DNA of 64,000 bases from Dermatophagoides farinae (Eukaryota; Arthropoda; Arachnida; Sarcoptiformes; Pyroglyphidae): assembly GCF_024713945.1 (NCBI RefSeq), contig NW_027461518.1, forward strand, positions 248,001-312,000, in the 5' to 3' direction. This document shows positions 1,797 through 57,558 of the stretch, one piece after another (the first letter of the stretch is position 1; every line of letters starts with the position of its first letter). The position numbers and the translations under genes are program-made. The notes under the pieces are model-generated. The model did not search any database, was not told the origin of the DNA, and worked only from the letters and a program-made list of their open reading frames with translations.

Positions 1797-2093
1797 ATGA
1801 GTTTGCAGTCTTTCAAGCCAATGCACAACTATCTTTTAGTTAAGCCGTTAAATGTTAAGAAATCGTTATTTCTGATTAACGACAGTGATGACTCAGAACG
1901 CTTCCAGCTAGCTGAAGTAAGTAAAATCGAAAAATTACTTTAGGTTGTCAAAACTTCTCACCAGATTACCGATATAAAACCCGGCAATAAGGTTTTAGTT
2001 CCTACTGAGGACTTGAAATTATTTATAAAGTTTGAAAAAAACGAGAAAAGTGTACTATTATCCTACAACGACATTCTAGGCAAATTCGATTAA
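1797..2093 (+). CDS. HSP10: Mitochondrial-type 10 kDa chaperonin (HSP10/Cpn10), two exons
   Basis: Neither exon is long enough to stand out alone. Exon 1 is 1797-1916 (40 codons). A 27-nt GTAAGT...TTTAG intron sits at 1917-1943. Exon 2 is 1944-2093 (49 codons and TAA). The junction is phase 0, and the product is 89 residues. It opens like a co-chaperonin (FKPMHNYLLVKPL), has a hydrophobic tripeptide LFL where GroES carries its mobile-loop contact, then GNKVLVPTED, and ends NDILGKFD, matching the family's terminal DILGK. Cpn10 caps the Cpn60 ring during protein folding in mitochondria. No cleavable targeting sequence is evident, as is usual for HSP10. The gene lies between FCF1 and ArgRS, all on the plus strand. 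Confidence 0.88.
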
Positions 2094-2212
2094 CGAGTAG
2101 GCTAGTTCAACATTTAAAAAAAGAACAGTCGAATTTTTGTTTCTGTTTTTTTGTGTATTTCTTTCGGCAAAATATATGTTCATTCTTTTTTCATAGAAAT
2201 AAAAAATTATTT

Positions 2213-4006
2213 ATGGAAAACTACAACCAGCGCTTTTGCAAGATCGACAAATCAAATATCCCGTTACGCGACAAGTTAAAGCTCTTGTTTGTAGAAGCTA
2301 TACACCGTGCTTTTCCTAAAACCATAAATGAGAAAATAAATGTTATTTTAAATCGAGTAAAAAGTGGCCCTTTCGACTACCAGTGCTCAAACGCGCTGAA
2401 CACGCCAAAACAATTCCCCAAAGATGTTTTTGACACTTTGGGTTCGATGGAAATCGCGCAAAAAATAGCGGATAACTTTCATAGTGATTCGGTTGAATCA
2501 GTGACTGTTCAAAAACCCGGTTTCATCTGCGTAACATTTTCTAACTTGTATTTAATTAATGAGCTAAAAGAAAATATTATTAAACCAAAGTTGATAGAGT
2601 GTAAAACCAACAGTATTTGCAACGTACTTGTAGATTTCAGTTCTCCCAATATTGCAAAAGAAATGCACGTTGGACATCTCAGGTCTACTATTCACGGAGA
2701 ATCCATCAGCCGAATGTTGGAATATATCGGATTATCTGTAAAACGTATCAACCACATAGGTGACTGGGGAACACAGTTTGGAATCTTAATCGAATATATC
2801 ATTCAAAACAAAGTTGACATTTATTCGAATAACCTGACTTTGTCAGCGTTAAACTCTTTGTATCAGTCTTCTCGCGCTCTATTTGATTCGAACGACGAGT
2901 TCAAGACAAAAGCTCGTAACAGAGTCGTGTTGCTGCAGCAAAAAGAAAAAGAAAGCCATACAATCTGGAAAAGACTGGTTGAATTATCCGAAATTGAATT
3001 CAAAAAAATTTACGAAAGGTTAGATATAAAACTTGAAACCTATGGAGAAAGTTTCTACCACGACATGATCGCAGACGACATTGAACGATGTAAGAAGCTG
3101 GGCATAGTAAAAATCGTTGACAACGCTACTTGTTTATTCGTAGACGACTACAAGAAATTCAAGCTTAGCGAAGTTCCGCTTATGTTGCAGAAAAGCAATG
3201 GAAGCTACGGTTACGACTCGACCGACGTTTCAACTATTTTATACAGAATAAAAAAACTGAAATGCAACTGTCTGATTTACATTACCGACATTGGTCAAAA
3301 AGACCACTTTTTACGATTGTTTCAAGCTACTAAAAAACTAGGAATCGAAAACGTCGATTTGTGGCATCTTGGTTTAGGACTGATTTGTGGCGCAGATGGA
3401 AAGAAATTCAAAACTCGCAGTGGAGAAACCGTCCGTTTGATTGACTTACTAGACGAGTCTGTAAGCAGATCCAAAGAAATTCTCAAAGTCAGACGTTCCG
3501 ACTTTACTCCAGAAGAACTAGAAACTGCAGCAACTTCAATAGGTCATTCTTCCGTTAAGTATTTCGATCTCAATCAGATTTGTTCCAACAATTACAACTT
3601 TGATTATGAGCGGATGCTCGATCCAAAAGGAAACACAGCTGTTTACATTTTATACACCTACGCAAGAATGAACGCTTTGTTAAAGAAATTAAATATGAAA
3701 CGAGAAAATTGTGAAGTTAACTTAAGTTTGAATGACATTGAACTGCAAAGCGTCTATGAACGAAAGCTCGTAGTTCATCTACTAAGATTTTCAGAATATT
3801 TAGATGAAATATTAGAAATTCTCAGCATGCACAAGCTCTGTGACTATTTATATGACTTGTGTAATCTGTACTCTTTGTTTTACGAAAACTGCAGAGTCGT
3901 AGGTTGTGATCAACAAAATTCTCGTACGATTATCACTGTTGGTTGCATGAAACTAGTCGAAACTATATGCAGCATTCTAGGCTTAAAATTACTAGAGTCT
4001 ATTTAG
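2213..4006 (+). CDS. Arginyl-tRNA synthetase (class I)
   Basis: The protein is 597 residues from the first in-frame ATG at 2213. It has the ArgRS N-terminal Add1-like region and then the class I signature HVGH at 152-155, inside PNIAKEMHVGHLRSTIHGES. NHIGDWGTQFG follows. The second class I loop is KKFKTRSGETVR, the usual ArgRS replacement for KMSKS. It ends with an anticodon-binding helical domain. It charges tRNA-Arg with arginine. The frame stays open upstream from 2093 without any ATG and encodes a basic, hydrophobic stretch, so a non-AUG organelle-targeted form is conceivable. The stop TAG (4004-4006) overlaps the stop codon of the convergent gene. Confidence 0.95.
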   Translation: MENYNQRFCKIDKSNIPLRDKLKLLFVEAIHRAFPKTINEKINVILNRVKSGPFDYQCSNALNTPKQFPKDVFDTLGSMEIAQKIADNFHSDSVESVTVQKPGFICVTFSNLYLINELKENIIKPKLIECKTNSICNVLVDFSSPNIAKEMHVGHLRSTIHGESISRMLEYIGLSVKRINHIGDWGTQFGILIEYIIQNKVDIYSNNLTLSALNSLYQSSRALFDSNDEFKTKARNRVVLLQQKEKESHTIWKRLVELSEIEFKKIYERLDIKLETYGESFYHDMIADDIERCKKLGIVKIVDNATCLFVDDYKKFKLSEVPLMLQKSNGSYGYDSTDVSTILYRIKKLKCNCLIYITDIGQKDHFLRLFQATKKLGIENVDLWHLGLGLICGADGKKFKTRSGETVRLIDLLDESVSRSKEILKVRRSDFTPEELETAATSIGHSSVKYFDLNQICSNNYNFDYERMLDPKGNTAVYILYTYARMNALLKKLNMKRENCEVNLSLNDIELQSVYERKLVVHLLRFSEYLDEILEILSMHKLCDYLYDLCNLYSLFYENCRVVGCDQQNSRTIITVGCMKLVETICSILGLKLLESI

Positions 4007-5805
4007 TTTGATGTGCTTTCAGTAATAGACGCGGCTATATTTTTTCTACGAAACTGTTTGATGAAATCCGAGCTATATTTTAAAAAAGCTTTGCAAGAAT
4101 CCTCATGTTTAATAGCTCTTGTTACGCTAAATTGTTTAACCTATGCCTAGATATATTCTTCCGGTACGTTTTCTGGAACTCTTGGCTGAACAGGTGATTT
4201 TTTTGCATATTGCTGTACTGGGTCAACCTTTTTGTTAGCATAATTGGGTTTTAAAAACTGGCTTTCCCGATGCATGTTGTGGTAAATTTCATTATTGGAA
4301 TATTTGTAAGTGTAATCATTGCAACCATATCCACCAAAGTTATTTACATTATAATGCTCAAACTCAGGCAGTCTGTTTGCAGACTGCGCGTATGGATAGT
4401 AGTACTCATTACTCATTCCACTTGCATAGTTAGGCACTTGAATATTTTCTAGCGATATTTGGTTGTAAAATCCAGACTGGTAGCCTTTCTTAAACATATT
4501 TATTTCCTTTTGCAAATATGAGTCACCTAATATCTCGCCGCAGCCTGCAATTTGCACTAACTCGGAACCGGATTTCATTAATACCTCTGATAGAATTTTA
4601 CATTTGGTCACACTGTTTTTTACTATGTCTTTAATTCGGACTGTGGAAAAATTTAATTTGTCAAAAAGCCGAAGCTTTTTAAGCAACTTATCTTCTTTCA
4701 CTCCTATGGCCGCCTCATTAGTGGATACTTCTTCAACTTCCTCAGTTTTTTTTATATCAGTTAATCCTTTTGCCAAATTTTCAAGAATTACTTCATCTGC
4801 TAATTTATCAACTTTAGCTTTGTTTAATTTTGAACCCCGAGTGCGCTTGTAAAAATTAACCTTTTCGTTACACGGTACCAAAGGGCGTATATCCCACGGT
4901 TTTTCGCCCAGCGTTCGAAACAAGTATTTAGATCCTACCATGTCGCTCAAAGAAGGAACAGGCTGCAACAACTCGTTCGGGAGTTTATGATTAAATATCT
5001 TATCGGTGAAAAGCTTAATTTCGTCAATTAAGTTAAATTTATTTTCGATCTCAGAACTGAGATTTTTTATTACCTCAGAGTGGTGAACTTTTTCATGTTG
5101 TTTTAAATCCGAAGCTAGTTGAGGCGTTATTTCAGAAATCTTCGCGAGTTTTATATTCAATTCCTTCAGATTATTTGTAATAGTGTCTGCTACGTGGTTT
5201 TTCAATTCTAAGTACTCGTCTTTTAAGTCGTTTAATAGCGTTGTTATTTTATCTAGCATCATGTTATAATGAACCAACAATTGCTCATAATCATTAATTA
5301 TGCTGTTTATTGGACCTGAATCTTTGACGGAATACGAAGCAAGTTTCATTCCGCGTTTTAATTCGTTCACAGCTAAGTACGCGCAATTCCAGTATACATT
5401 CGCCTGGTACACACGCATTTGCCGCGATTCTAAAATTTTCATTAGTATGTTTACAGTGATTGCGTAATATTCAAACCAGTAAATCAAATAAGTTAAATCA
5501 GACATCAGTGTTAAAGCGTTATATAGATTTTCATCGTCACTGTGTTCTTGAAATTTAGCCACGAGTTCAGGAGCGAAAAATTTATACGAAAGAAAGCAAC
5601 TCTGCAACGAATTTCTGTCGCCGCATCGTTTCACAACGATATATAGATATTTGTTGAGATTTGTTTGGTCAGCGTGTGTATTTTTTTCTTTTTCAATCTC
5701 CTCTTCATTTTCAGCGTCCAAAGACACATTCAATCGTTCCGCTTCTTCCCATTTTTCATTGCATTTTTCAATGACTTTATTAATAACTCCACTTGAATTA
5801 TCCAT
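4003..5805 (-). CDS. Coiled-coil protein of unknown function, two exons
   Basis: Not recognised. Exon 1 runs 5805-4168. A 27-nt intron at 4141-4167 (donor GTACCG, acceptor ATAG on the minus strand, phase 0) joins to a 45-residue exon ending in TAA at 4005-4003, giving 591 residues. Without splicing the protein would end PEEYI. With splicing it gains a lysine- and arginine-rich tail including SCKAFLKYSSDFIKQF. The N-terminal third is acidic and helical, the middle is predicted coiled coil (about 170-290), and a Tyr/Asn-rich low-complexity stretch lies near 450-520. There is no signal peptide or membrane segment. The stop codon shares bases with that of the ArgRS gene. Confidence 0.75.
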
Positions 5806-6049
5806 ACTTTAATTTAGGTGCATCGTTATTTCGCACCAACTCAAATCTGACCAAATATCGACAAAAAAAAACCGCCAAGCGTAATTTTTTCTATAATAAT
5901 TCTATTTGTACGATGTTAAAACTAATAATCGGTATGGATTTACTTTTTAAACTTGAAAAAAACTTTTTTTGTAATCTGCGTGTTTTTGATCAACCGCTTT
6001 ACTTACAAACGCGCAAGTTAAATACACTTTAACGTTAAAATAATATATA

Positions 6050-7335
6050 TTATAACATAAGCGGAAAAGGATTGTTTCTACTTAGTATTAATTTGTTTTG
6101 CTCTAAACTTATATAACCTCGAATGTGGCCAGTGCTAATTAGATATATTAAATATTCGATCGTTTCGAATTCGTCTAATTTGTTTTCGTTGGAAAAATTG
6201 AGTGCTTTATGTATAATTGACAAATCCCAAAACACTTGGTTTGGAGATTCAGCACTAAGAATGCTTATCGTAGCTTTACACACCTTTTGAATCACCACAG
6301 TCCTTAGTTTCAAAATGCATTCTATAGTTCCATCTAAAAAATATAAATTGGCGTTTTTCTTCAAAGTTGCTTCGAATAAAGCTAGTTTTCCATTTAATAC
6401 AGCGTCAACGACGTCTTTATAATGTAGAAGGTTATGGTTTTCTAAATATTTACGTTTCAGATAATAGCCTTTGTAAAGTTTAATCACAAACAGCTTGATT
6501 AAAATGTCTCGCAGCAACGAACTATTTCTTGGCGTGCACAGAGTTAACGCTTTGTGATATTCAATCAACGCGGCGTCGTACTGATCGTCGTTCATCAATT
6601 TGCATCCTGTCAAATAAACGAAGGTCGCTGCCACGTTTCTGTACAAAACAGACGAGTATATTTCAACTGAAGAAATCTGAGACAGCAAACTATTAGCCAT
6701 GTTTGTGCTTTCGGAATACAAAGCCAAACGTATACTTATGGACAGCAACGTTATGTAGACATTGAAATAACTATTGTCCAACTCTGGATTGCGGAACCTG
6801 CCGACGTGTCTTCGCAAACCGTTCAAGAGCTTTTGGAAAAACTGGCTCCGAGGCTCTTTGTCGTCGATACACGCTCGTATACATTCTATGACAAACTCTG
6901 ACATTTTGTTAAATACGGGGCAAAAATAACATTTCACTTGCGACTGTGCCATCGATATTGCCAGTAAATCACATAACTGGACTGTTTTATCCGTTATATC
7001 GGTCAGCAATTCGTATGACTTTGCGTTTCTCAGGTTTTGTAAATTCGTCAAGAGATAATAATCAAATAGAATCAAAATAAAACATTTTACCGCCTCTTGG
7101 ACATGTTGATCCTTCACTAAGCTCACAGCTTTTTGAATATCAAGTGCTTTTAAGTCCTTTAGTTGCTGCCATTGGAACGGAGAATTTTTACTGGATCCGT
7201 CAAAATCAATTATTCGTCTAGTATTAAACAACCAGTCAATATACGCCGCTAAAAATTAATTAGTTTGTCCAACTTACGGCTCTCTAATTCTATTGCCCGA
7301 TTTAAATGTGAAATCCAAGCTTCCAATCCTTTCAT
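6050..7335 (-). CDS. PCI-domain protein of the PCID2/Thp1/CSN12 family
   Basis: Two exons: 7335-7278 (ATG, 19 codons plus one base) and 7248-6050, joined over a 29-nt GTAAGT...TTTAG intron (7249-7277). The product is 418 residues. The helical repeats end in a winged-helix PCI module whose last segment, YLIYLISTGHIRGYISLEQ then NNPFP, matches the PCID2 ending (a Gly-Tyr-Ile-Ser strand followed by K-x-NPFP). Family members are the Thp1/PCID2 subunit of the TREX-2 mRNA-export complex at the nuclear pore, and the related CSN12. I cannot separate those two by eye, but the NPFP ending favours PCID2. Confidence 0.82.
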
Positions 7336-7458
7336 AAATAAATTTACATCACTAGATGCCTTACGTTTCCTACTCTAGCTTTTCGATGAACTGTTATGTT
7401 AGAGAACAAGAAAAATTAGGATTCACACAACAACAGGCTGACTAACTTTTCACGTTTA

Positions 7459-8415: not shown

Positions 8416-8554
8416 TTGACTATTTATTTACTAATAAAATACCAGCTATATTATTATTATAAATTATGCAATTTTCAAATTCTAGCTTCTCCAATTGTGC
8501 TAAAGCACGGCAACTAAAACTTGCGTCATAAAACTTATTTATCAACATAAGAAT

Positions 8555-9235
8555 CTACAAATCAGTCATATAAAGCGGTAATATTAACTTACTGAGTCTA
8601 GAACTAAGACGTTTAATCTTATTTGTTACATATTCTTGGTCAACTAAGTCAAATATATTATTTTTTTTACCGGTATTGGGTTGACTTTGAAAATTACAAT
8701 TTTCATCCGTCAACTTACATTCATATTGGTCTGGTAAATTTTTAACTAACTTTTTCTCGCCAAAAGACCCTTTGTTAGCTGACGTGTAAGTAGCTTTAGA
8801 ACATGGCTGAAATGATAAACTATTTCGTTGCTCAGACGTGTTACTGTTCACGCTCGGTCGTTTGGAATGAATAATATTTATTTCGTTTCTATTGATAAAA
8901 TGCTCTTGAGAAACCGATTCGGATCTGAAAATAGATTTTTTCGGACTCTCGTTACACGTGCATTGGCTAAGCTTTAGTTTTAGTTTCGCACATTCCAGTT
9001 CCAGCTCTTGAACTTTTCTATTGTAGTATCGCTTTTCCTTTATTAGTTGCTTTTCAAACTCTATCAATGCCATCGCTTCCGACTCTAGTTCTAAACTTAT
9101 TTGATCTAGCAATTCATCTCGCTGCTCAACGGTATATTCGCGCTTGAGTAATTCAGATTTTTCATGTTCCAAAATAAGCTCTTGCTCTGCTCTCCATTTT
9201 ATCCATTCTTCTTGCTCCGTCGTCAACTCATCCAT
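8555..9235 (-). CDS. Coiled-coil protein, unknown; 3' end uncertain
   Basis: Not recognised. Residues 1-95 are a continuous charged coiled coil (Glu/Lys/Leu-rich, few prolines). A Ser/Asn-rich linker follows, then a short basic C-terminal helix. There is no membrane segment. A GTAAGT donor lies 35 bases before the stop (first G at about 8592). Splicing to the TAG at 8555 would remove 38 nt and replace the tail with a hexapeptide ending at 8535. The same frame is open for a further 44 codons beyond the TAG, to 8420. The annotated end is therefore provisional. The gene is divergent from the PIP-box protein at 9328, across 92 bp. Confidence 0.65.
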   Translation of the reverse strand: MDELTTEQEEWIKWRAEQELILEHEKSELLKREYTVEQRDELLDQISLELESEAMALIEFEKQLIKEKRYYNRKVQELELECAKLKLKLSQCTCNESPKKSIFRSESVSQEHFINRNEINIIHSKRPSVNSNTSEQRNSLSFQPCSKATYTSANKGSFGEKKLVKNLPDQYECKLTDENCNFQSQPNTGKKNNIFDLVDQEYVTNKIKRLSSRLSKLILPLYMTDL

Positions 9236-9327
9236 TCAACTCTCATATTTTTAATTCGCGCTTAGCGATAAAAAGAAAATTTATTTCATATTCAAAAGTA
9301 CCCACTTTTATAATTTACGAAAAACGA
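9236..9327. promoter_or_regulatory. Short divergent promoter region
   Basis: Ninety-two AT-rich bases separate the ATG of the minus-strand coiled-coil gene from the ATG of the plus-strand PIP-box protein. Both promoters must fit here or overlap the coding regions. No canonical TATA box can be singled out, because the whole stretch is A/T-rich. Confidence 0.4.
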
Positions 9328-10011: not shown

Positions 10012-10118
10012 TTATAGCTAATAAATATTTCGACTGACCTATTTAAAAACTAATTTTCTTGATTTTTCATTAATAGGTTACTAATGTTCTTTTTTCATTC
10101 CAGATCAGAGAAATAAAA

Positions 10119-10711
10119 ATGCCAAAAAAATGTAACGGGGTGGAATTACAGTATAAAATAAATAATAAATCAAAGTCTCTATGTTTTTGCACAGAATCTA
10201 GTCAAAGTACAAGTGAAAAATTTGTCTGTGAACAAATAAACTTTTGTGATTACAATCTTTGCCTAAACAACGCCAAGTGCAAGTCTATAAAGGTATACCC
10301 TTACGTCTATTGCGAGTGTCCACCTGGCAAGCAAGGCGTGTTTTGTCAAGATACTCAAGATATCTGTGCTACCAATCCTTGTTTAAACGGAGGTACCTGC
10401 GTACCTGTCGTAGGAAGCACCAGTGGCTTTACATGTGTCTGCCCAGCTCAATACACTGGAGATCGATGTGAAAGTAAGTTTAATTCGACAAATTAAACTA
10501 GAAACTATTAAATACGGAATCGGCGGATCGGGAACAGCGCTACAAGGCTACTCATTGCTTATCGTTTGGATAATAATTGTAATATCAATTTATGCAGGCA
10601 TATATTCACTTATATTATTAACTGTGGAGTGGTTTAAACTAATGGTAAGTTGGTTATAATTAATATATTAAGATAGGAAAATGTTTCGGCTGGAACGTCG
10701 TATCTCACTAA
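10119..10711 (+). CDS. Two-EGF-domain single-pass membrane protein, three exons
   Basis: Exons 10119-10473, 10502-10644 and 10673-10711 are joined across two 28-nt GTAAGT introns, giving 178 residues. A Cys-containing N-terminal region leads to two six-cysteine EGF-like domains (about 43-76 and 83-117; the second holds CLNGGTC and CVCPAQYTGDRC). A hydrophobic helix at about 136-160 and a short cytosolic tail follow. Without splicing the protein stops before the membrane helix. EGF modules occur in apicomplexan adhesins and surface proteins, so a surface or secretory-organelle role is likely. No signal peptide follows the only usable ATG. Either an upstream exon is missed or the protein enters the ER through its C-terminal helix. 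Confidence 0.78.
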
Positions 10712-10952: not shown

Positions 10953-13900
10953 ATGCTAGACATTAACTCACAGTATAAATTAAGTAAGTAGATTTATTTA
11001 TTTGTATTATTAGAAATCATCGAATCTAACGACGAAGAAACACTTTTTTTGGTAGAAAGCAATAACGTAATAGGTAGCAAAAAAAAAAGTGAAAATAACC
11101 CAATCGATTCTGTTGCATGGAGTAAAGACTGCAATTTCTACAAATGTAAATTTGTCCACGACGCAAAAGTCTATTATAAAGTAGTCGACAACAAAGCAGA
11201 AGTATATGGAATGTCAATTGTTGGAGCTGCAAACACAGAAACGGCAAGAAAAATTGCTGTGTACGCGTTAAACGAGTTTATGCAGTGCAAACTTGATTTA
11301 ATAAGTAATAATAAAGCTCCAGTCCCCAGAAAAACTTTAGCGGATTTGTTATCTTTATTATTGAAAGAAAATATTTGTAATGAAACGCAGAAAAAGCAAT
11401 TGATGCAACTTCTTTACAAATTCTTTCAGTCCAAGCTAGACATTCAGAGGTTATATGGCTGCATTGCTGGTATTATAGGTTACAGTACGTTACGCAAACT
11501 ACTCGCGGCTTTGGACGCTAGTGAATCTAATTTACCAGATGCTCCAAGTGACGAATTGCTTCCAACTTTAATAAGAATGGTCATGAAAGGTACTAAATGC
11601 TATAAACCGAGCAACACTTCGCCTTTGCCAATTCCAGGATACTTATTCAATTCTGTTGAGGAAAACAAGATCTTTTTCTTACATCACTCTAACTCCGAAC
11701 TGGTGGACGTTTCTATTTCCCATCAACAGATTTTATCGATAGAACTTAATCTCACTCGAAACCTGCATAGAATAGGTCATATTTCGCAACAAATAAGTCA
11801 GGACTTAAATATACATATAGGAGGAATTTTAGAAAATGCAGTTGACCCGTACCTTAACGGATGGGGGTACTTAACTTTCTGTGATTTCAAAGCTTTAAAA
11901 TATTATTTTCAGGAGTTAACTGGAGAGTTGCCTTCGCGTGACACTTTTGGCCCAGCTTATGGCTATACGCCCGAATATAATTCAAACATTAATGTCGGGC
12001 ATCTTTACTCTTTCTCAGGAGTAAATTCAGTCAGAGTTTTGACCCTACTACGTCAACAGCTGTCTAAATTGCCAAATAATATCATGTTTATTAACAAGTT
12101 TTATAAGCTTTCAACCAGAACTTTCTCTTGGACAAATCTATCCTCTCCATCGATGCCAGAACCAAGAGCATACGCAATTTCATCAACTGTTTTTTTAGAC
12201 TGTGTAGCGGTAGGCTTTATTGTTTATGGTGGTTTAGGAGTCACAAAAACACAGGACCTTTGTTTATACAACGATTTGTGGTTCTATAACTTTGAGAAAA
12301 ATTCGTGGAATAAGATTCATATGCAAAACTTGCCCGAAGTAGCCGCTGCTGCTTGTACTTGGTTGGACACGAGTTGTTTACTGGTGCACGGAGGATTTAA
12401 TCGCAACAGAGAATTTAATAACACATTAGGTATATTTGTTTTCGACTTTATTGAAGATCAACTTAATGTTTCCTATACTAAAGTCCCCGTCACAATACCG
12501 AAAAGCTTGTCACCACACTCTTTTTGTAGAGCACTACACACCATCATGCTTATTAAAGCGACGCCAGAAGAATTTGGGTTTGTGAAACAGTCTTTCAACG
12601 TAACAAAAACTAATGAATATACCAGAGTTTTTTTTGGTAGCAGTTGGAGGTATCGATAGCGCCGACGAAACAGAAAAAAGTCAAGACTCAGAAGGTCTCG
12701 AAAAAGGAGAGCAGTCTTCCGCACAGAAAAACGAAGATACTCCCATTAATGTAACTCAAAAATCTGAAAAAAACTGTAAACAGTATGTAGGATTGATTTT
12801 CTTCGAACTAACCATAGAAAACAATTCTATTATTAAAAGTGTTACAGCTTACAAGTTGATTACAGCGGTTCCGCGTTTGTTAGCTAGCAAACAAGACAAA
12901 TATCTAGCTCGGTTATTGTGTACATTTGATCCAATCAATGTTCAAATAAAAAACACTTCTATTACTATGCCTGTCATATTATGTTCAGGAGGCTTAAGTT
13001 TATTATCTTCTAAATTCGTGCAAGTTGGCTTAAAGCCAAACAACGAAACCAAAAGTTTTATAATTACGTTTCACAATTCTGACGTATTCGATTTTATCCT
13101 GTACGGAAACCAGTTCTCTAATCAGTATTTATCAAAGATAAATAAAAAAACTTGTGAGAGCGTAACTGACGAGTTTGATCCCGAAATGGCTAAAATGTAC
13201 TTAAACTGTGTGAAAGAATCTCGCTGGAACTTCACCAAGAACGTTATAACGCCAGACATTTTCGGAATATTTAACACATTAGTAGTTTTTCCATTTACAG
13301 CGATAGGAAATTACATCAACAACTCTTGTGACCTACGTAATCGATGTACAAATTTCTGGATTGATTTATGTGTAGGTCCTTATGGAAAAATGTATTTGGC
13401 TATTACAGACAATGGACGTGGCATGAATTACAATGTTTTCAAAAAATACATTATGCAATTTGGCTTTTCCGACAGATCTGAGTCATTAAACACGTTAGAC
13501 TTTTCAAGATCAGGTACGTACGGTATCTCTTCCAAGTTTTCTTATGCTAAACTTGCTCATTCCTTACTTGTTTGTACACGGACTTCCGATTTAATCAGTT
13601 TAGGGCTCATAAGTTCGCATTTCATGAATAGCATCGGCAGCAAGCAATGTGCCGTCCCCACATTATATTGGAAACTACCCGACAAAACCTTAATTCACTC
13701 AGAATCAGAACATTTAACAAACCAAGAAACTATCACTCAATATTCTTATTTGAATTCAGCGCAAGAGCTCGCAGATTTTATTAATCTCACCCCTACTGCT
13801 TCGGGAACTCGAATCATGTTGTTCGACATGAAAGAAACAAACGGCAGTTTTTTAGCGTTCGATCAAACAGATGGGCAAATTCGGCTGAGCCATTTTTGTG

Positions 13901-15008
13901 GAGAGCCTATTTACTTCAATTTAAATGTCAACAGTCAGCATTTGGAACATTCGTTTAGAAACGGATACGCGTTGCTCAAATCTAATATAGCCTTGTACAA
14001 AGTCAATTCGACCTTTCACTACTTGCTCAATACAAAAGCATTAGAAAAAAATTACACTTACGTCGATGATACAGAAAACAAAAATAAAGAAGCGGCTAAC
14101 AAAAATTCGCCTAACTCTACGGCAAGTGAAATTACCGGACGCCCTAGAAAGCGGGCTCGCACAATTAAACAAGAGTTTCCAATGTTTACAAAAATACAGC
14201 CCAACACTTCTATTTTACTAATTAACCCGCATTTTCCATTCTACTGTCACCCAAGAGATTCAATTGATTTCAATTTAGCGACTTATATGTATTGTAGCCA
14301 TCTTTTTAACCCGACAACCTTGTACTTATCGCGACTGGCTTTAATTACAAAAGATTACGCTCTACTAAAAAATAACGACATTACTTACAATAGCTTTTAC
14401 AGGTTTTGTAAACGGAACCTTAACGGAGTGGCTGAATTAGAGTATTTGTTCAACCCATCTGACGCGAATCGAAACGGTTTCGGGTTGCTTGGGTTTGTCA
14501 ATCCTATCAAGTTACTGACAGACAAGTCTGCAACTAACAAATTTTGCGAGTTAGGAGTTTTGATCTTTTACAAGGAAAGACTTATTAAAAGAATGTTCGT
14601 GCCTTTTGCTTCGTCACCTTATGCTATGTATTCATTTTCCAAGCCTCCATTTCCTGAAACACATTTCACTGGTTCTCCTATTTTTTATTTCCCATGCACA
14701 GCTTTGATAAGTAAGTTTATACTATCTTTCCAAATATTTTAGATTTGCCAGATCATTACTGTCCCAATGCAACATATGAAGATCTAGTTTGCCAACGAAC
14801 TCCAATTTACAACGAGTTAGATACTTGCAGTAAGTTAATTTTATGTATATTTATTTTAGTTCGTAAACTCATAGGCAACTACCTGTTAGTAGTACGAGAC
14901 AAAAAAAAATTAGACGCGTGGTTAGATAATCGCAATAAAATTTATTTAGAAAATATCAGTAAGCACGAACCGTTAAGTTCTTTATTACACTTATCACTAT
15001 TAAAATAG
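10953..15008 (+). CDS. MORC: MORC-type protein: Kelch repeats plus GHKL ATPase, five exons
   Basis: Exons 10953-10983, 11014-12599, 12628-14710, 14743-14829 and 14860-15008 rejoin in frame across introns of 30, 28, 32 and 30 nt, giving 1,311 residues. Kelch-type blades are visible at about 385-500 (YNDLWFYNFEKNSWNKI, then LLVHGGFNRNREFNNTL). A GHKL ATPase follows: N-box AIGNYINNSCD at 764-774, ITDNGRGMN near 800-805, and a GTYGISSKFSYAKLA lid. A basic KRAR linker and a C-terminal helical region complete it. In Toxoplasma and Plasmodium, Kelch-MORC proteins repress chromatin with AP2 factors and histone deacetylase to control stage conversion. The glutamate that normally opens the N-box is Asn767 here, so ATP hydrolysis is doubtful. 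Confidence 0.85.
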
Positions 15009-15170: not shown

Positions 15171-15934
15171 ATGTTGTTGTTTAGTGTTATCTATTTGTAT
15201 TTGTCAAATAATCTCTTCGTTTCAGGGTATGGGATTCAGTTAAGACCCATTACTTCCAAAAATGATTTATCTCTATCAGCATCGAATACACTAAATAATG
15301 TATGTTTCACATTATTTTCAATTATTAATAGTCAAACACAATAAATCCAACTATCGAAAGAGGTGGGCCTGACAAACGAACTCGTGAAATCGTAGATATG
15401 TCAAAAAAATGTAAATTATATCATTTTACAGATTATCATCCAAATTGTTATATCCAGGATACGAATACGTTATATGCATGGAGCGTAGGTTAATTCAATT
15501 CACACTTTCTAAATAGAATTCGATCACAAAGCAGTTATATCCTTTAAACAATGTACATTTTCCAATAAGTGATGTTTTATTGAAAATATCAGTGTAAGAT
15601 TAATGATTAATCTCTTTTTAGGATGCTAAACGCAGACGTTGGATTTGTAATAAGATCCTATCATGACGTCATTGAAATTTTTTTGACTACTATTCAACAG
15701 CTTGTCGTTAGAAAAAACGATGTCGTAATTAATAACATATATTTACCTAATGTTAGACCAATCTTTATCCACGATTTATGTGTTAGTTACAATAAAAATC
15801 AGCATAAATTTACGATATATATTGATGAGGTAAAATATTTAGAATTTTTACAGCCTATTTCCCATGAATCGCATGTTGATCTGTATTTTTCAAATGGATA
15901 TACCATTTTTGAATTTTTATTTATTTGCAATTAG
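15171..15934 (+). CDS. Secreted protein of unknown function, four exons
   Basis: Exons 15171-15299, 15332-15484, 15517-15593 and 15622-15934 join across introns of 32, 32 and 28 nt, giving 223 residues with every phase consistent. The first 19 or so residues (MLLFSVIYLYLSNNLFVSG) form a signal peptide. A short Ser/Asn-rich linker and a four-Cys segment follow. The C-terminal 110 residues alternate strands and end in YIDEVKYLEF ... LYFSNGYTIFEF, which could be a jelly-roll or LamG-like fold; I cannot name it. No membrane helix or GPI signal is evident. It sits next to the EGF protein and MORC on the same strand. Its TAG stop overlaps the TAA of the convergent Sfi1 gene. Confidence 0.75.
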
Positions 15935-28992: not shown

Positions 28993-30641
28993 TTAATGTT
29001 GGGGGATTTTCTCAATAATTAGTTGCTTAGCATAGTTTCTTCTGCTCAAGCTTAGTTTCTTAGCGTTCTGCATGACACACGCGCCGTTAATGTCAGACAC
29101 ATTGACGGAGTTGTTAAAAATTATTTCAATGTTGATCTCATCGGTAATTAGTTCTAAAATCTCGACATTTTTGTCGACTAAATACGTCTTATAGTTTGTG
29201 TTGCAGGAGCGGACGTGCGAACCGCAGCTAGTGATCAATTCTTTAACAGCAAAGTGAATAGGCTTTATCTGGGACGAAATCGCGTCGTTAGTCTCTGAGA
29301 CATCCAATTGTGAAAGACATATGTGAGTGAGTTTATATATAGCATCAAGTTTTTCTGCTAATTGCGTTATGTTATCTATAGTACAGCGAGTAGTTGGACC
29401 GGCGCTAGTATTATCTCGAATCAGACTTAAAATCACGCTTGAGAACAAAGCGAAAAACTGAGCCAGAAAAAACCTAATGTCTCGGTCAACATAGCGGTCA
29501 TAAATGCTAACTACATATGAGAAACCTAACTTACTATTTTTGAAAATACTGAGTAAACATAGGCTCTATCACGTTCGATAGATGCAAATTGTTGTTCACG
29601 AAACTTAGAATCGCGTTGGATATTACGGCATCGCCGTGGCTGTGCTGAATTTTCAATGAAAGCTCTAATAATTGGCGTAAAGCTACTCTGTTCATCAAGG
29701 TTGCGTTTTGCAAAAAAAATAAAAAGTCAGAAAAACATATTACCTGTGATAGGAACAGTAAATCCAGCTTCTTTATCAAGCCGTCACGAATATGAGCTTC
29801 AGAAGACAGTTTAACTATTAATTTAAAAGCTGACACAACCACATTCTGTGCGTTGTGTTCGAGCAAGTTGTGTATATGACAATGAACCAAAGAGTGAACT
29901 AAAAATTTAATTGACCAAATACTTACCGTCGTATTTTTTCGATAGAATAAGTTTCGTGTTGCGGTAAAAATAATTAAGTGTTGCCAGCAACACGTCTATC
30001 AAATCATGATTCAATAATCGAATAAAAAACCCTTCATTCGGAAGCTGAAAAATTATCTTTTTGAAGTACTCGACCATTTCAGTGCTGAGTTCATGATTAG
30101 GCGAAGGTGTATCATTTTCGGGAAGCAGATCTGCTACTGAAATCAAACAACTATTTTTCACTTCCATTCTACTGTTGTTCCATACTGGAAATACAAGATT
30201 GTTGTTAATATACTTTTTTAGGGTTGTGCTAATTTTTTTTTGTGCGGCGGACTTTTTTCCTATGTTTTTTGCAAAGCCTATGTTTACAATTCGTTCAGCT
30301 AAAAAGTCTAAATCATCCATGTGCAAAAACCGTTGTAATATATCAACTAATTTAATCTTATAAGAAGTTGAAACAGCCGTGTCAATCTCGTTGAAAATAA
30401 TAATTCTAACGCTAGTGACAATCGCTTTAACTAAGTGCGACTTGGAATATTGAAGTTTTGCATCGTCTAAAAAGGCTGAACGTTCTAAGTTTGCCTTGCT
30501 CAAAACCACAGAAAATGAACTCAGTTCTTTTAGTACAAAGTACGTTCTTACGTCTTCTTTTAAAGTGAGGTATTTGTCTATTTTTTCGACTATTGAAAGT
30601 AATTTTTCCTCTAATTCGTATTTGGCTTCGAGCGCCTCCAT
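28993..30641 (-). CDS. Helical-repeat protein of unknown function, three exons
   Basis: Exons 30641-29927, 29898-29535 and 29506-28993 (minus strand) join over two 28-nt GTAAGT introns at 29899-29926 and 29507-29534, giving 530 residues with phases 1 and 2. The whole chain is alpha-helical with Leu/Ile/Phe-rich amphipathic helices of HEAT/armadillo length (FIRLLNHDLIDVLLATLNYF; HGDAVISNAILSFVNNNL). There is no signal peptide or clear membrane span, no zinc motif and no enzymatic signature. A scaffold or complex subunit is likely, but I cannot name it. It is divergent from the 30903 gene across 261 bp. Confidence 0.7.
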
Positions 30642-30902: not shown

Positions 30903-31971
30903 ATGAGTGAGTCGAATGTCGATATATTGCTGAAATTCGTTATTAAGTCTTCTGAACTGTACAGTTCAAATGTCGGTAAGTGTTGTAAAACGAATAAGTT
31001 TGTTAGAACTGAAAACAATTTTGTTTGACGAAAATTCCATGATTGTCAGCTCCATTTCGTCGAGTGAGCCTTGCAAATATGGTCTCATTGAAGTGATCAC
31101 CAAGGAAATAGCCAATGAGATTTCATCAAGCAGCATTATACTTAACTTGTCGAAATTGACAACGTACAAGGAAAAAGAAATTTGTTTTATTGAACTATTT
31201 TTAGTGGCAAAAAACGGCGAAAACGTACATACTTTTGCGTTGCATCAAGGAGAAATTGAAATATTCATTATTGTGAAAAACAACGCGACGAACACTGAAG
31301 AAACTGTGTCGTTTTCCATAATAAATATTATGGACATAGAGCAAGAAGCCAATCTCGTGCTTTTATGCTTTTGGTTAAAAAACGTTTATGGCTACAAGCG
31401 AGAAAGCAATATATTGTTTAATATCGCTGACGTGCTGCAAACATGGGTGTTCAAAACGTGTAAGATTGCCTATTTTGAAAATAAAACGCTCGAAATAATG
31501 AAAATAGGGCAAGAGCAAGCTAGTTTAAACATGGAAGACACTGCTGAGTACGGTACCAGCAATTTGAACATGCTGGATTTCGTCGAAGCCAAGCTGGAAA
31601 ACATTTTTTCAGCAAATTGTATGTCTCTTTCGTCACACAACATATCTAAAGTGAATGCGGTCGATAGACTTGGATTGAAAAAAAAATGCATTACCACCAT
31701 TCCACTAAACATCATCAGTGAATACTTGTACTACCTAGACCAAAGAATGGAGTGTACAGAAAAAAATACGGAAGATTTGTGGCAGCTTGTAAACCATTTG
31801 CTCACAGAAAACAACACTGTGCAAATAATGTCTAACCAGTTGGTCGAACTTACAAGTAAAATTAATCAGTTCGAAAGGCTCATACAAGACGTTTTTCAGG
31901 GAAAGTTCAAAACTGAATCGCAGATCAAAGACCTTATTTCTATATTTAATCTTTCTGTATGTGGAAAATAA
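30903..31971 (+). CDS. Unknown protein, two exons
   Basis: The true start is the ATG at 30903. Exon 1 is 30903-30975. A 31-nt GTAAGT intron (30976-31006) joins in phase 1 to the long exon, giving 345 residues. The frame also reads straight through the intron, which would give a false internal start at 30970. The N-terminal half has alternating strands and helices (KEKEICFIELFLVAKNGE). The C-terminal 80 residues are a helical, probably coiled-coil segment (VQIMSNQLVELTSKINQFERL). No family is recognised. The frame reopens directly after the stop TAA (31969-31971) into the next gene. Confidence 0.6.
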
Positions 31972-32352: not shown

Positions 32353-32996
32353 AAGCCAGCACCACAGGGCTGAGTTCGATTTCGGGAATGAAACACATAG
32401 CGTCCTCGTTAAAAAGTGGTAATTTGTCTTTATTCATACAGATTTCAATCATTGGGCCAGGAAGTGTGGTAAACTCTGCATCAGTGTCAGTCGATTGCCA
32501 ATAAGGTTTGAATAAATCCGTAAGGTGGACATTTAAAAATGACTTATTGGCTTGCGCATGAACAGAAAGTGTGCTATGCGTATTGAACAGGATGGTTTGT
32601 TCCTCCTCAGAAGCAATTTTCAAAATAAAGTCTTTAAAGTTGTTTAACAGAACCCCGTTTTTTGACTTGTACAACGACCGTAAAACGCTTTCAAACACTC
32701 CGATCGTTCTAGGTACTCGAAACTCGGGTGACACTCGTACCCAGCTGTGATCGTTCTGGAATAACACTTCAATATAGTATTTTTTCGTTGCTATGGAGTC
32801 AAAAATATTCAGTAAACATTGATGTAATACATTTAACTTTTCTAAACCTTCTTCAGTTTTTAAATTACGTAAATTCACGTCTCTTTATATAAATTACGGT
32901 TTTTTAAACTTACGTATTGGACAAAACTATAAATAATTTACGCTTCTGACCTGTGAATTGCGTTTCTTCGCCGTTAACGCATTTTTCGTCTTGCAT
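32306..32996 (-). CDS. EMG1: Ribosome biogenesis methyltransferase EMG1/NEP1, two exons
   Basis: Exon 1 is 32996-32914 and exon 2 is 32882-32306, joined in phase 2 over a 31-nt GTAAGT intron (32883-32913), giving 219 residues. Exon 1 supplies the first SPOUT strand (KRKLFIVLSN). Exon 2 has the NEP1 core: LHQCLLNIFDS, a strand (KYYIEVLF), then VSPEFRVPRTIGVFESVL, matching the family's R-[IV]-P-R-T motif, and the C-terminal knot region ending IELSPVVLASRILQ. Nep1 is the N1-specific pseudouridine methyltransferase that modifies 18S rRNA, and is required for 40S assembly. It is slightly shorter than typical (about 240-250). Confidence 0.78.
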
Positions 32997-36833: not shown

Positions 36834-38689
36834 ATGCAAGAAAATTTTATTGATGTAGAGAATAGCGTGCCTATAGGCGGATACGAAAACCAAATTTACA
36901 ACGAAGGCTGGGGAGAAGGCAACGAAAACGAAAGTGGGGAAGATGAGTCTTGGTTGAAAATTGATCGTACACTTGCCATGGAGGTTAACATTCCGCTCGA
37001 TCATGGAGGGGAGTTGATTTCGTTTTATGAAGTGCGAAATTGGAAATTGCCTTCCTTGAACGAATTGAACCGGCTGAAAACTCGTATAACTGATGAGTGG
37101 ATCAAACCATTGAACCTCAAGCAACAAGACATCGTTCGCGCCAGCGGTCTGGGGGCCCCCTACGTATGTTATTTGTTGAAGGACCCTAACAGTCCAAACA
37201 TGAACCGCAGACGTAAAATTGAAGCTTATAGTGTGCTGACAGAGCTATTCAGGAAATATGATGAAGGATTAATTACAAAAGAACATTTTACTCGCCTCAG
37301 AAATCAACGAGTTGCCAGTCGCTTTCAAGGACCTCGGGCGGAGCGATTCACAAAAGTGAACAACTCTAACCACATGGTCAGAATGAAGCGCCGCTATTCT
37401 TATAATAACGAAATAGACGGCGACGGCGAGGAAGAAGAGGATGGCTCGAGTATAGAAGATAATATGAGTATGAAAAGCAAACGAAAACAACGAATGATTA
37501 ATTGTAAGTTATTTTGGCGCTTTGAGCGCGCTTCAATATTTTTCTAGCAAATGTTGACCAGAAATACAATGTAAATGAGCGCAAGATGCAGAATGTAATG
37601 TCAGGACCCGGCTTTATGGACGGGCCAATGCAACAAAATTACGTCAAACATTGGGTTCCCGTGACAAATACGCCTATTTATCCTGTGCATCCATATACAA
37701 CTCAGGTTGCTGCTGGCAAAATTCCGAATTCCAGCGCCACTTCTTATATGCAAAACGGGCAGAACTCGTTTATAGCTCCTTATCCAAATTGCTTTCCTAA
37801 AGTCGTTCGTACTGTGTTCCCACTTTCTAGCGCCATCGACGGCCCTGTTTCTACCAAGTTTTACGAATATAAACAAGAAAAAAACGAACAGAAAGATGAA
37901 AATCAGAATCAAGACGTATACAGTTCGTGGGTCGATTCAAAAATTTCATCAGTTTGCAATAAATGTCTCGTCTCGGGAAAAGAAGGAAACAATGCTGTAT
38001 TTAGAAACCCTCTAACTCACGCGTTTGTTTTTTTAATAAATAAAACCAGCTTGTTAATTCCGATACTGCTCGAAACCAAACCTGAATCGCTAGCAAATTT
38101 CGAAGTTCATTCTGACGAGCAATTATGGGATATCCAGTATTTAAGAAAACATGCTGAAGAACAAAACTGGCTTTCGGACAAGCATAACAGATCAGACTGT
38201 ATTTGTGTTTTGTGGAACATCAACGACTTGCCCGTTTTTATAAATGGCGTTTTAGAAAAGTGGAAACAAGACTACAAGTTCACTGACGAAGAAATGTCCA
38301 TTGTAACTTTGCAGTTTCTCTCGCAATTCGTTTATTTACGAGATATAGAAGTTGCGTTTCAAGCTTTACTGCCGCAGGTTGATCCTAGCGAAAACTTTAC
38401 CCGTGTTTTAGAAATGAATTGTATCCTCAATGATGACAAGTTGAAAATTAATGACACTTTTTCTTGGGACATAAGAGCTTCCGACATGGAGTTAGTTACG
38501 TTGTTGTCGTATTTTATCTCCGACTTTCAGCTAAGCGTACCTTCGATAACATCGATGTTTATCGACTTGAAATTGCTAATAATTAAATACCGTAAAGAAT
38601 GGGTGCAAAATATGCTTGAAAGAATGATCAATTCGGGACGAATCCAACCCGTCAATGTTCTTCCTGACTCATTATCCCTGAAGGTTTAG
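36834..38689 (+). CDS. HTH-domain protein, probable DNA-binding regulator, two exons
   Basis: Exon 1 is 36834-37503 and exon 2 is 37548-38689, joined in phase 1 across a 44-nt GTAAGT...TCTAG intron, giving 603 residues. Residues about 70-135 look like a compact helix-turn-helix of the lambda-repressor/HNF1-POU type: NLKQQDIVRASGLGAPYVCYLL, then a basic NMNRRRKIEAYSVL helix. Downstream come KRKQR and an acidic GEEEEDG run, a Met/Asn/Pro-rich linker, and a C-terminal globular region of about 270 residues that I do not recognise. Nuclear DNA binding is inferred from fold-like pattern only. It is not an AP2 domain. Confidence 0.6.
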
Positions 38690-40159: not shown

Positions 40160-41061
40160 TTACTTATTACTTTTCAAATACTGTACTGTCAAAATACTTA
40201 GTATTAATGCTCTACACTTATCAGCACAGACCGTGAAATTCACTTCTGAAAGTGCATTCTATAATATTTTTTTGTAAATACTTACACAAATATTGATCTT
40301 TAAATTATTTAAATTAATCGCACTGCAAGGATCTTTTAGTTGTATTTTGGTTCTTTTAAGGCGTTTATTTGCTACCAAATGTGTTAGAAATAAATTGATC
40401 GTTTGGTACAAGTAGTGGTGTTCAGGAAAAAAAGTAATGAAGTTAGTTAGGATTGATTGGTCTTCAAGCTGATTTAACCGAATTAATTGAGCCTCGATTT
40501 CTTGAATTTTTTTCTTTTTGTCAAAATCAATTACGTTGCTTACGTTTGAAAAACATAAAATTAAATGTTTTTCTTGATTTTTTCGAATTTCAGAACAGAA
40601 TATTTTATATAAATAAAACACGGATTGCGACGAACTAAGCGGAATTGACGCGTCCAAAACCCACACAATGATGTCATAGTAACTCACAACGTGGTCGAAA
40701 TTTGTATCAGACGAATTAAAATTTTCTGACGCCAGAAATATATTCGGTGTTTCAGAGTAAAAATCGTTTGACATGTGATTCAGATCTGTTATATAAGTCT
40801 TAGATAATTTTTTTACTTCAATGGAATCTGTTATTTTAACTTCGTGATGAGTCAACATTTGCCACAACAACCGTTTTTCATTTTGATTTTCGCCACAAAT
40901 TAGCACGCTTGGTCTTCTTTTTATAGGTTTGAATTTTTCAACTACAAGATTTTGATTATATACAGTTAGATGTTTTATCACTTACAAATATACACGTTAA
41001 TAACAAATAAAAATGTGGTTAACAAGATAAACGACGTGCCATTATCAATTACAGTTCTCAT
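40160..41061 (-). CDS. Signal recognition particle receptor beta subunit (SRPRB-like), three exons
   Basis: Exons 41061-40986, 40941-40286 and 40258-40160 join over introns of 44 nt (40942-40985, phase 1) and 27 nt (40259-40285, phase 0), giving 276 residues. Exon 1 supplies an N-terminal membrane helix (SFILLTTFLFVINVYI), followed by a GTPase-like domain, the exact plan and size of SRbeta, which anchors SRalpha to the ER. After RRPSVLICGENQ comes KITDSIEV (compare the TxTS region), and later DIIVWVLDASIP and ILCFSN. The P-loop is degenerate: the Gly-Lys-Ser/Thr end reads Glu-Lys-Arg (47-49), so GTP binding may be weak. The family call rests on topology and spacing. Confidence 0.66.
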
Positions 41062-48110: not shown

Positions 48111-48202
48111 GTTTGATCTTAGATTCTATAGATGAATTAAACACACTGCTTAGTTATTGGAAAGAACTAATTAATAAGCAACAAAAAATGTCAAGCGAAA
48201 CA

Positions 48203-49998: not shown

Positions 49999-50139
49999 GT
50001 TTCATTAGTTTTCTTATTTTAGTTCATTAATAAAATATTTGCTAGTTGGGTGAAAAAAAGAAAAAAATTCTCATAATTAAAAATAAGTAATCTCCACCAG
50101 TCACAAAAATATAAAAGAGAGCGCTAATAATCCGTAAAC

Positions 50140-52071: not shown

Positions 52072-52267
52072 TCCGTATAGTGCACCTAAAAAGGTTCATT
52101 CAGATAAAAAATCATAAAGCCCTTTTTCTTCATCGCTGTTGATTTCGATGTTGGCTGACGAAGTTTAGTTTTAATTTTATTCTTTGATGGCGAAACATTA
52201 ATTAATTTTTGAATTTATAGCCAGTAATAATTACAGCCGTGTCTTTCAGTGAGACAGGTCGGTGCTA

Positions 52268-53456: not shown

Positions 53457-53507
53457 TAAGAGACACACGATACGCAAACAACAGTTTGTTCTCCAGGAAA
53501 AATTGAA

Positions 53508-54476: not shown

Positions 54477-54661
54477 TTCTACTGCTTTTTACAGTCATGT
54501 TTAATCAATAACTGAGAATCTATTATTGATGCGTTACAACATTAAACGAGTCATTGTTATGTATTATGGTGCGAAATCACTTAGGAGAACAAATGATAAT
54601 AATTTTCAAATTTTTTGTCAGAAAATAAAAACACATAAATTTTTCATTTTTGAAAATAATT

Positions 54662-55954: not shown

Positions 55955-56136
55955 GGTATAAAATAATTGCTAAAACACCGTTCATGAAAAACTTAATATA
56001 TCTAAAATTAATTATCACGGTTACAGGAAAACCGCATACAAAATTGTTTATAATATCAACGTGCGAAATAGGGAGTTGTTCCTTTTAATCAAACATATAA
56101 ACGTTTTCTAAAGTTAAAACCTATGTTACCTATTTA

Positions 56137-56514
56137 TTAAACGTAGCTGTCTTGGTTTCTTGAAAACTTATTCTGTATATAAAAGAGTGAGCCTAGCAGG
56201 TTCGAATCCGGATAATACTCAATCGGATCCACACTTTCTTCCGTCATTTTTAAAAGCTGATCGTGAATTTTTAAATACTCTGAAGACAAATCTTTGAGCT
56301 CTCGTTCTATTGCTTCAATTCTGCTCATATTTTTTGTGAACAAAATGTTAAGTTCGTTTTGGTAAGTTGATATGCTATTTGTATTTTTTACGTTATTTGG
56401 GACGGATAAATTCGGCAGCGTTTTTAACGACAAAAAATATTTTAGTGAGAAAATTGGTAGTTTTTCCTCTACTTTGCGTAAATCAGTCCATTTGTTAAAA
56501 AAATCGATCGACAT
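56137..56514 (-). CDS. Small coiled-coil protein, unknown
   Basis: A 125-residue protein. The N-terminal half is globular (LPIFSLKYFLSLKTLPNL). Residues about 60-92 are one heptad-like coiled coil (MSRIEAIERELKDLSSEYLKIHDQLLKM), and the tail is acidic with Tyr and Pro (DPIEYYPDSNL). Size and layout suit a small subunit of a coiled-coil complex (Mediator-, kinetochore- or BLOC-like), but nothing identifies which. It is divergent from the HACD gene across 174 bp. Confidence 0.5.
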   Translation of the reverse strand: MSIDFFNKWTDLRKVEEKLPIFSLKYFLSLKTLPNLSVPNNVKNTNSISTYQNELNILFTKNMSRIEAIERELKDLSSEYLKIHDQLLKMTEESVDPIEYYPDSNLLGSLFYIQNKFSRNQDSYV

Positions 56515-56688
56515 ATTGAAAAATAATTGATATTTTACAGTTACATTTCTAAAAACTGTTTTTCAAATATTTGAAGTTTAATATTTTTGTAAATCTTTAT
56601 TTATAATAAATATTATATTTTTACACGTGATCAGATTTTTGAAAGTTTAAACTTTTAATTGTTACAGTTTGCTAGAATTTAAATTATT

Positions 56689-57558
56689 ATGTCTCGTAGA
56701 CAAAGAACAAAAAATAATTTAGACGCGAAAAGTGAAAATAGTTTGCGTTCAGACAAGCCAAAGTAGGTTTATACAGCAGTTGAGATTTTCACAAAAAAGT
56801 CAGGCTGTTACTTTTCTAAATTTACTTTTAAGGGGTAATGAACGAAACAAGCAGGTCGTTAATTCGAAGATCTTGTTTGAAGACAAGATCGCTTTGATTT
56901 ACAACATTTCGGTTCTTGCGGGCTGGATGTACATTGGGTACAATTTATTCAACGTTGTTTTATCGCATATAACGTCGCCCGGCAATACTCGAGACATACA
57001 AGATCTAGGCTTAATAGTCATGATAATAATGTTTTATTCCTTGCTAGAACCGTTGTTAGCCTTGTTTAAAATCACAAAAAATCATTTTTTCACTTGCTTG
57101 AGTAAGTTTTGTTTAGTAATATTTTTTTAGTTCAAGTTTTATCGAGACTGCATCTCACGCTATTTGTTTGGCCGGTTATATTCAGACTAGCCACTGTTTC
57201 GCAGTTGCTGTTAATTGGAGTTTGGAGTCTCAGCGAGTTTTGCAGATACCCTTACTACATCCATCAACTACTTTTTAAAAACTCAAAGAACCGCATTTTA
57301 ACTTTTATCAGATACAGTAGCTTTATAGTTTTGTATCCTTTAGGTATTACGTGCGAAATCATCAATATATTTAAAGCCTTACCAATGTTGAACTACGACA
57401 TAATGCCTAGTTTGTTCCACAATTCAATGCTCCATAGATCAGGCTTGTTAACGATGAGAAATTTATATTATTTAATTTTGCTTTTTTACATTCCGGGAAG
57501 CATTTATTTATATAATCACATGTTGATGCAAAGAAAAAAAGCATTAGAAAAGTTATAA
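56689..57558 (+). CDS. PHS1: Very-long-chain 3-hydroxyacyl-CoA dehydratase (HACD/PHS1), three exons
   Basis: Exon 1 (56689-56762, basic N terminus) joins in phase 2 over a 22-nt intron (56763-56784), or alternatively a 37-nt one (to 56799). The next exon ends at 57101. A 29-nt GTAAGT intron (57102-57130, phase 1) leads to the final exon, giving about 272 residues. Several membrane helices and the PTPLA/HACD block are clear: QVLSRLHLTLFVW, then VWSLSEFCRYPYYI (catalytic Tyr-Arg region) and FIRYSSFIVLYPLGITCEI (with the downstream catalytic Glu). This ER enzyme removes water in the third step of very-long-chain fatty acid elongation. Confidence 0.88.

Follow-up and report, generated by a model that had tools for sequence, protein, structure and literature searches.

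The stretch of DNA analyzed here, hereafter the window, comprises the 64,000 nucleotides (nt) between bases 248001 and 312000 of contig NW_027461518.1 (C15, 425,538 bases), one of the 22 contigs in the 62.4 Mb assembly of the mite Dermatophagoides farinae. Judging from the sequence, it contains a class of 27–32 nt introns that is very probably real. We consider it highly likely that the window is nuclear DNA of a gregarine-like organism on a contaminant contig, that its genes are compact, and that an ordinary major spliceosome, operating close to its minimum intron length, splices out their introns, which are mostly 27–32 nt long and of the form GTAAGT...U-rich...YAG. An original prediction had listed about twenty such intervals and had interpreted them as a genome-wide class with a minor 44 nt class and a length-restricted splicing machinery.

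Evidence for a 27–32 nt intron class

A coding model was trained on the long open frames of bases 1–200000 of C15 and of the window (264 kb in total) and was followed by a two-strand gene finder, which was run on the same sequence in two modes, each set against four decoy signal pairs. Run A required only GT..AG ends at any length of 18–120 nt. Run B added donor and acceptor preferences and allowed all lengths of 15–150 nt equally; its donor preferences were chosen after the donors of the original prediction were known. Run B placed 19 of its 35 introns at 27–32 nt, against 1/28, 2/17, 1/35 and 1/12 introns at 25–33 nt for the decoys, and the tight size range that had been predicted thus stands. 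The remaining 16 calls with the real signals include probable false long introns. In run A, 11 of the 31 introns were 25–33 nt long, with nine GTAAGT donors, and the decoys gave 4/27, 3/36, 2/27 and 3/30, with no donor word occurring more than three times.

The peak was also seen when donor words were counted directly. An in-frame acceptor was present 20–60 nt away from 63 GTAAGT donors, and in 29 of them the chosen length was 27–32 nt (P ~3e-9 under a flat length model); the same count gave 3/29 for GTATGT, 5/27 for GTGAGT and 2/15 for GTAGGT. The initial coding threshold of a GT-AG pair scan turned out to be too strict, as it returned 3 GT-AG pairs. With the threshold loosened, 11 of 43 GTAAGT pairs were 25–33 nt long, and the corresponding numbers were 0–1 for four scrambled donors and 0–2 for five other GT donors.

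From the earlier list, the scans and run B we selected by eye, by frame and ends, a curated set of 39 short introns. All of them are 27–32 nt long with a mode of 28 nt (12/39), and all have GT-AG ends, having been selected as such. GTAAGT is the donor of 34, and 38 have a G at position 5. Counting from the 3′ end, T occupies each of positions 3–6 in 26–31 of the 39 introns, and A occupies position 11 in 26 (P ~2e-4 relative to the 37% found at positions 14–20, uncorrected for the number of positions inspected). Positions 6–9 show no strong conservation of A (6, 13, 13 and 13 of 39). A short-word search of the curated set for a branch-point motif found nothing convincing, the best word being AACG (5/39).

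The hand-picked candidates on C15 consist of these 39 short introns and seven longer ones of 35, 37, 38, 44, 44, 46 and 47 nt, which form a thin tail. Because the longer candidates are spread over 35–47 nt, a discrete 44 nt class was rejected. The idea that hairpins shorten the longer introns was likewise rejected, as the folding of all seven gave z values of −1.2 to +1.2 relative to shuffled sequences. The 44 nt intron at 37504 contains GCGC..GCGC. Overall, 35–46 introns in 145 predicted genes correspond to about 0.24–0.32 introns per gene.

Homology supports several of the joins individually. Related proteins align across five junctions (those of the introns starting at 1917, 14711, 14830, 32883 and 57102) and around a sixth (12600). 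The Pfam family Cpn10 spans the 1917–1943 join over residues 6–88 with 23.3 bits (cut-off 21.1), and the separate pieces give 14.0 bits and nothing, a gain of 9.3 bits. For PTPLA, the joined score across 57102–57130 is 117.1 bits compared to 102.4 and nothing for the pieces (a gain of 14.7), and for EMG1 across 32883–32913 it is 43.9 bits compared to 41.8 and nothing, a small gain of 2.1; in the latter two families the separate pieces lacked the split-codon residue. Eight spliced products in all were searched with Pfam, and in five of them no match extended over the join: four matched no family (of two of these, just the first 150 and 140 residues were searched), and in one an EGF domain lay to the side.

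The remaining homology evidence comes from the gene at 10953–15008, which encodes a Kelch-MORC protein. A Gregarina protein contains the Kelch and ATPase halves in a single chain, but the alignment is poor at the exact position of the 12600 join; if this intron is retained, the protein stops at residue 558. The same Gregarina protein aligns without gaps over the 14711 and 14830 joins. The best alignment scores 280 bits, and it falls to 229 bits when the former intron is retained and to 272 bits when the latter is. As the interval 14830–14859 is a multiple of three without an in-frame stop, its retention adds ten residues and causes no truncation.

Origin of the contig

The arginyl-tRNA synthetase (ArgRS) of the window shares 98% identity, over 89% of its length, with a protein that carries the label Dermatophagoides pteronyssinus (P0001). 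The next matches are a second protein with this label (P0002, 44%) and gregarine proteins. In a tree of 41 rows, made up of the window protein and 40 matches that we chose from the 120 listed, the window and the two mite-labelled proteins group with four rows from gregarines and one without a name (support 99/97). The assembly contains ArgRS genes on C8, on C1 (in pieces) and on C15. P0002 also groups with the window and is perhaps derived from another parasite; the C15 copy is the sole ArgRS of the assembly that was compared with it (44%).

Of 7611 candidates scored against the spliced Kelch-MORC protein (1311 amino acids, aa), two are related to it at E ≤0.001. The better one is the Gregarina sp. 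protein with the identical domain fusion, whose best local alignment shows 31% identity over 43% (E 3e-99); judging by the name of its record, this protein seems to come from an RNA assembly. Sister contigs point in the same direction. The alveolin family (PF12314) has a single match in the assembly, on C14, and AP2 domains score above the cut-off on C14, C16 and C19 only, with one sub-threshold match on C11. CCCTAAA repeats are found at the starts of C14 and C16 and a CCTAA-type repeat at that of C11; 19 ends of C12–C21 were retrieved, and of the 18 that could be read, 2 have such repeats. Samples of C12, C14 and C16–C21 have longest open frames of 1074–3111 nt per 3–4 kb, and C13 was seen at its ends only. 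As C12 and C14–C21 add up to about 2.86 Mb of parasite-type contigs, the parasite genome is probably represented here only in part.

On the basis of the ArgRS tree, the Kelch-MORC fusion and the alveolin and AP2 matches on sister contigs, C15 is very probably a contig of a gregarine-like apicomplexan contaminating the mite assembly. Apicomplexan contaminants are known, and gregarines have been found in 12 assemblies, all of them arthropod transcriptomes; Dermatophagoides is not named in the accessible portion of that report (PMC5244568). Gregarine 18S turned up in the Caparinia sample of a mite study, according to the available part of its text (PMC6321676). The listings of our literature search, which covered few subscription papers, showed no report of this contaminant.

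The introns could alternatively belong to an animal, either the mite itself or some animal that resembles the dicyemids in its tiny introns. Dicyemid origin was in fact our first idea, as the intron size is alike: the median is 27 bp in Dicyema sp. (PMC6543705), the mean is 38.2 bp in D. japonicum (PMC6736024), and a mean of 26.2 over 16 introns in 7 genes is given for Dicyema in what could be consulted of these and a further paper (PMC2222250, PMC6543705, PMC6736024). The EGF domain in the window would also suit an animal. However, dicyemids are animals with 4.9–6.2 introns per gene in the same sources, far from the density on C15, and this difference, together with the relationships of the ArgRS and Kelch-MORC genes, ruled them out. 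Alveolin and AP2 likewise indicate gregarines. As for the mite, none of the ten GTAAGT candidates in the sampled mite contigs is 27–32 nt long, and the clear mite introns, which are in HSP70 and SF1 genes, measure 51–65 nt, unlike the C15 class. An animal origin is thus highly improbable, and the term "genome-wide" does not apply to the assembly, as the peak is found on a contaminant contig.

If C15 is gregarine-like, some proteins labelled Dermatophagoides pteronyssinus in the databases (UniRef/nr) are apparently derived from a parasite, which is relevant to allergen and mite biology, and gene models on such contaminant contigs may be wrong. The HSP70 of the window (42123–44054) is 95% identical to another protein with this label (P0132). 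The database model of P0132 lacks 27 residues (81 nt) that are present in the window, which looks like the result of a wrongly predicted intron.

Splicing machinery and intron length

The original prediction had suggested checking for the loss of U2AF or SF1, and homologues of both were found. A 366-aa frame at C15:111319-112419 encodes a homologue of SF1, the branchpoint-bridging protein (BBP), with a zinc knuckle and a KH domain of the BBP type (72.5 bits), and its best relative in the PDB is Splicing factor 1. The SF1 helix-hairpin family is found on mite contig C1 only. A second BBP-type KH domain is encoded at C14:424257-424478, within a 752-aa frame of a parasite contig. A 463-aa frame on C16 matches the U2AF large subunit, with a score that falls short of the cut-off for the whole protein; for the 166 aa of it that were examined, in which RRM1 alone was seen, 13 of 13 PDB matches are U2AF65, and NCBIfam also names the U2AF large subunit. 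PRP8 is represented by one domain, which lies within a C14 open frame of 2341 aa.

The presence of SF1, U2AF65 and PRP8 homologues and the pattern of donor, T tract and A at position 11 are the reasons why we favor an ordinary major spliceosome. The intervals would be spliced from the RNA itself. U1 would pair with the near-perfect GTAAGT donor, and SF1 and U2AF65 would bind an A-rich site about 11–13 nt from the 3′ end, the putative branch point, and the short U tract that follows it. The introns may lie near the minimum length that the spliceosome tolerates because the genome has been compacted. Such a floor could be imposed either by the machine or by nothing more than deletion pressure.

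This size class is already described. In the marine eugregarines Porospora cf. gigantea A and B, which live in the lobster, introns of about 25–30 bp with a mode of 28 make up 71–72% of all introns, according to the part of the report available to us (PMC9250747). The resemblance to C15 comprises a gregarine-type organism, the 28 nt mode, the narrow range, a compact genome, and a short class that forms most of the introns. There are differences too. In Porospora introns an A is strongly conserved 6 bp upstream of the 3′ acceptor, a feature that the authors liken to Babesia microti, whereas those of C15 lack that A and have an A peak at position 11. Furthermore, the GC content of Porospora is 54.3% (PMC9250747), whereas 2-kb bins of the window range from 26 to 42%. 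Babesia microti, an apicomplexan with similarly very short introns, differs in that its introns are shorter still (20 bp, as cited in PMC9250747). Hence, C15 appears to add a further gregarine-like case, and the Porospora class would extend to a parasite associated with a mite.

The identical mode in Porospora and the narrow 27–32 nt peak would also be expected if the machinery were length-restricted, i.e. if parts such as U2AF and SF1 had been lost or changed, leaving introns of about 28 nt as the only ones that can be spliced. This seems unlikely to us, as SF1 and U2AF65 homologues are present and candidate introns of 35–47 nt occur as well. The size range may reflect a minimum of the spliceosome, but the factors are retained, and nothing indicates an altered machine; since both homologues were kept, their loss is unnecessary for 28 nt introns. 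A related and tentative proposal, to which we give a somewhat better but still small chance, is that gregarines have a common intron length which the spliceosome dictates, independently of the place of the branch point, with the distance between the 5′ and 3′ splice sites being measured. It arises because two distant gregarines, Porospora and that of C15, share the 28 nt mode but have different 3′ ends, and SF1 and U2AF65 are retained.

Ciliates, which are also alveolates, excise short DNA segments, and the intervals could in principle be such internal eliminated sequences, cut out of DNA and not of RNA. We regard this as exceedingly improbable: the GT-AG ends, GTAAGT donors and U tract are spliceosomal, the intervals are still present in the assembled DNA, and homologues of SF1, U2AF65 and PRP8 are encoded.

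Several observations weigh against a gregarine-like origin with ordinary splicing of a short-intron class. U2 and U6 RNA were found on mite contigs only, in an assembly that is partial for the parasite and with some of the candidates scored, and an Rfam search at the gathering score gave nothing in the window, in C15:1-200000 or in eight small samples. The branches of the ArgRS tree are long, and the tree program warns of that of the window. Among named matches, animal Hsc70s come closest to the HSP70 of C15 (~70–71% identity), and there is no apicomplexan among the named rows of its 120 best matches; fast evolution, database make-up or transfer may lie behind this likeness. On the other sampled parasite contigs, a single one of the five GTAAGT candidates was 28 nt long and the other four measured 38–44 nt, so that the length peak is demonstrated for C15 alone.

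Finally, when in-frame GT..AG pairs were counted with no donor preference, 113 were 25–33 nt long compared to 93–116 in four controls. There is no excess in this count, and the excess at 25–33 nt therefore depends on the GTAAGT donor or on the gene finder. Such a result would be expected if the intervals were chance GT..AG pairs or assembly indels chosen because they mend frames, and open frames were indeed the rule by which they had been selected; those at 4141, 10645 and 40259 have little more in their favor. The decoys, however, show no length peak, and homology supports the joins. Hence, this explanation is very unlikely and is contradicted for the class, although single entries could fail.

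Individual introns and other features

On one strand or the other, each of the 20 listed intervals (Table 1) starts with GT, ends with AG and has the length that had been predicted. In 20 of 20 cases the sequence to either side stays open in one phase or more once the interval is removed, which is not independent support because the introns had been picked by that rule. Run B recovers exactly seven of them (7249, 10984, 12600, 14711, 29899, 32883 and 37504) and run A four (10984, 12600, 29899 and 37504). Taken together, the gene finder and homology provide support beyond the open-frame rule for 10 of the 20. A relaxed scan of GTAAGT donors, the GTAAGT scan of Table 1, gave identical ends for 13 of the 15 introns listed with this donor.

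Table 1. Introns listed for the window and the arginyl-tRNA synthetase gene
Coordinates	Strand	Feature	Evidence
1917..1943	+	27 nt intron, GTAAGT..TAG, in Cpn10 gene (1797-2093)	homology; loosened pair scan; GTAAGT scan
2213..4006	+	ArgRS gene, intronless	sequence matches; tree
4141..4167	-	27 nt listed intron, donor GTACCG, doubtful	open frame both sides only
7249..7277	-	29 nt intron, GTAAGT..TAG	run B exact; open frames 96 and 1194 nt
10474..10501	+	28 nt intron, EGF-like membrane protein gene (10119-10711), two introns	open frame both sides
10645..10672	+	28 nt intron, AAG acceptor, near 3′ end of EGF-like gene (10119-10711), weak	in frame
10984..11013	+	30 nt intron, first of Kelch-MORC gene (10953-15008)	runs A and B
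12600..12627	+	28 nt intron, GTAACA..GAG, joins Kelch and ATPase halves	runs A and B; homology
14711..14742	+	32 nt intron, Kelch-MORC gene	run B; homology
14830..14859	+	30 nt intron, Kelch-MORC gene	homology
15300..15331	+	32 nt intron, donor GTATGT, gene 15171-15934	phase chain
15485..15516	+	32 nt intron, donor GTAGGT, gene 15171-15934	phase chain
15594..15621	+	28 nt intron, donor GTAAGA, gene 15171-15934	phase chain
29507..29534	-	28 nt intron, GTAAGT..TAG	open frames 459 and 510 nt; GTAAGT scan
29899..29926	-	28 nt intron, GTAAGT..TAG, gene shared with 29507 intron	both scans; runs A and B
30976..31006	+	31 nt intron, GTAAGT..TAG	both scans; open frames 129 and 960 nt
32883..32913	-	31 nt intron, GTAAGT..AAG, EMG1/NEP1 gene	run B; homology
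37504..37547	+	44 nt intron, GTAAGT..TAG	both scans; runs A and B; open frames 672 and 1137 nt
40259..40285	-	27 nt intron, near 3′ end of gene, weak	in frame, also in GTAAGT scan; 96 nt open downstream
40942..40985	-	44 nt intron, GTAAGT..TAG, gene shared with 40259 intron	GTAAGT scan; open frames 90 and 678 nt
57102..57130	+	29 nt intron, PTPLA (3-hydroxyacyl-CoA dehydratase-like) gene	homology

The claim of about twenty real introns mostly holds, with support beyond open frames for half of the list, and at its weak end are three entries. The interval 4141–4167, which is doubtful, was recovered by no scan and by neither gene-finder run. The 10645 intron has only 36 nt open downstream, and the GTAAGT scan favors an acceptor that makes it 32 nt long. 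The 40259 junction is similarly weak; together with that at 40942 it yields one frame. In the gene at 15171–15934, removal of the introns at 15300, 15485 and 15594 in matching phases gives a single frame of 223 aa. For 29507–29534, run B used the identical donor and a different acceptor, and 30976–31006 is not among the run B introns.

The small protein apparently encoded by the gene at 10119–10711 (+), a gene with two candidate short introns, is EGF-like and contains a hydrophobic stretch; the EGF domain of the spliced product lies on one side of the 10474 junction and does not extend across it. A search for tRNA genes, run on the bacterial setting, found none in the 264 kb. A 1753-aa open frame at 15931–21192 (−) has no Pfam match and no sequence match in the PDB. 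Lastly, a possible further intron of 38 nt, GTAAGT..TAG, is located at 8555–8592 (−), where an open frame ends; only 15 nt are open downstream of it.

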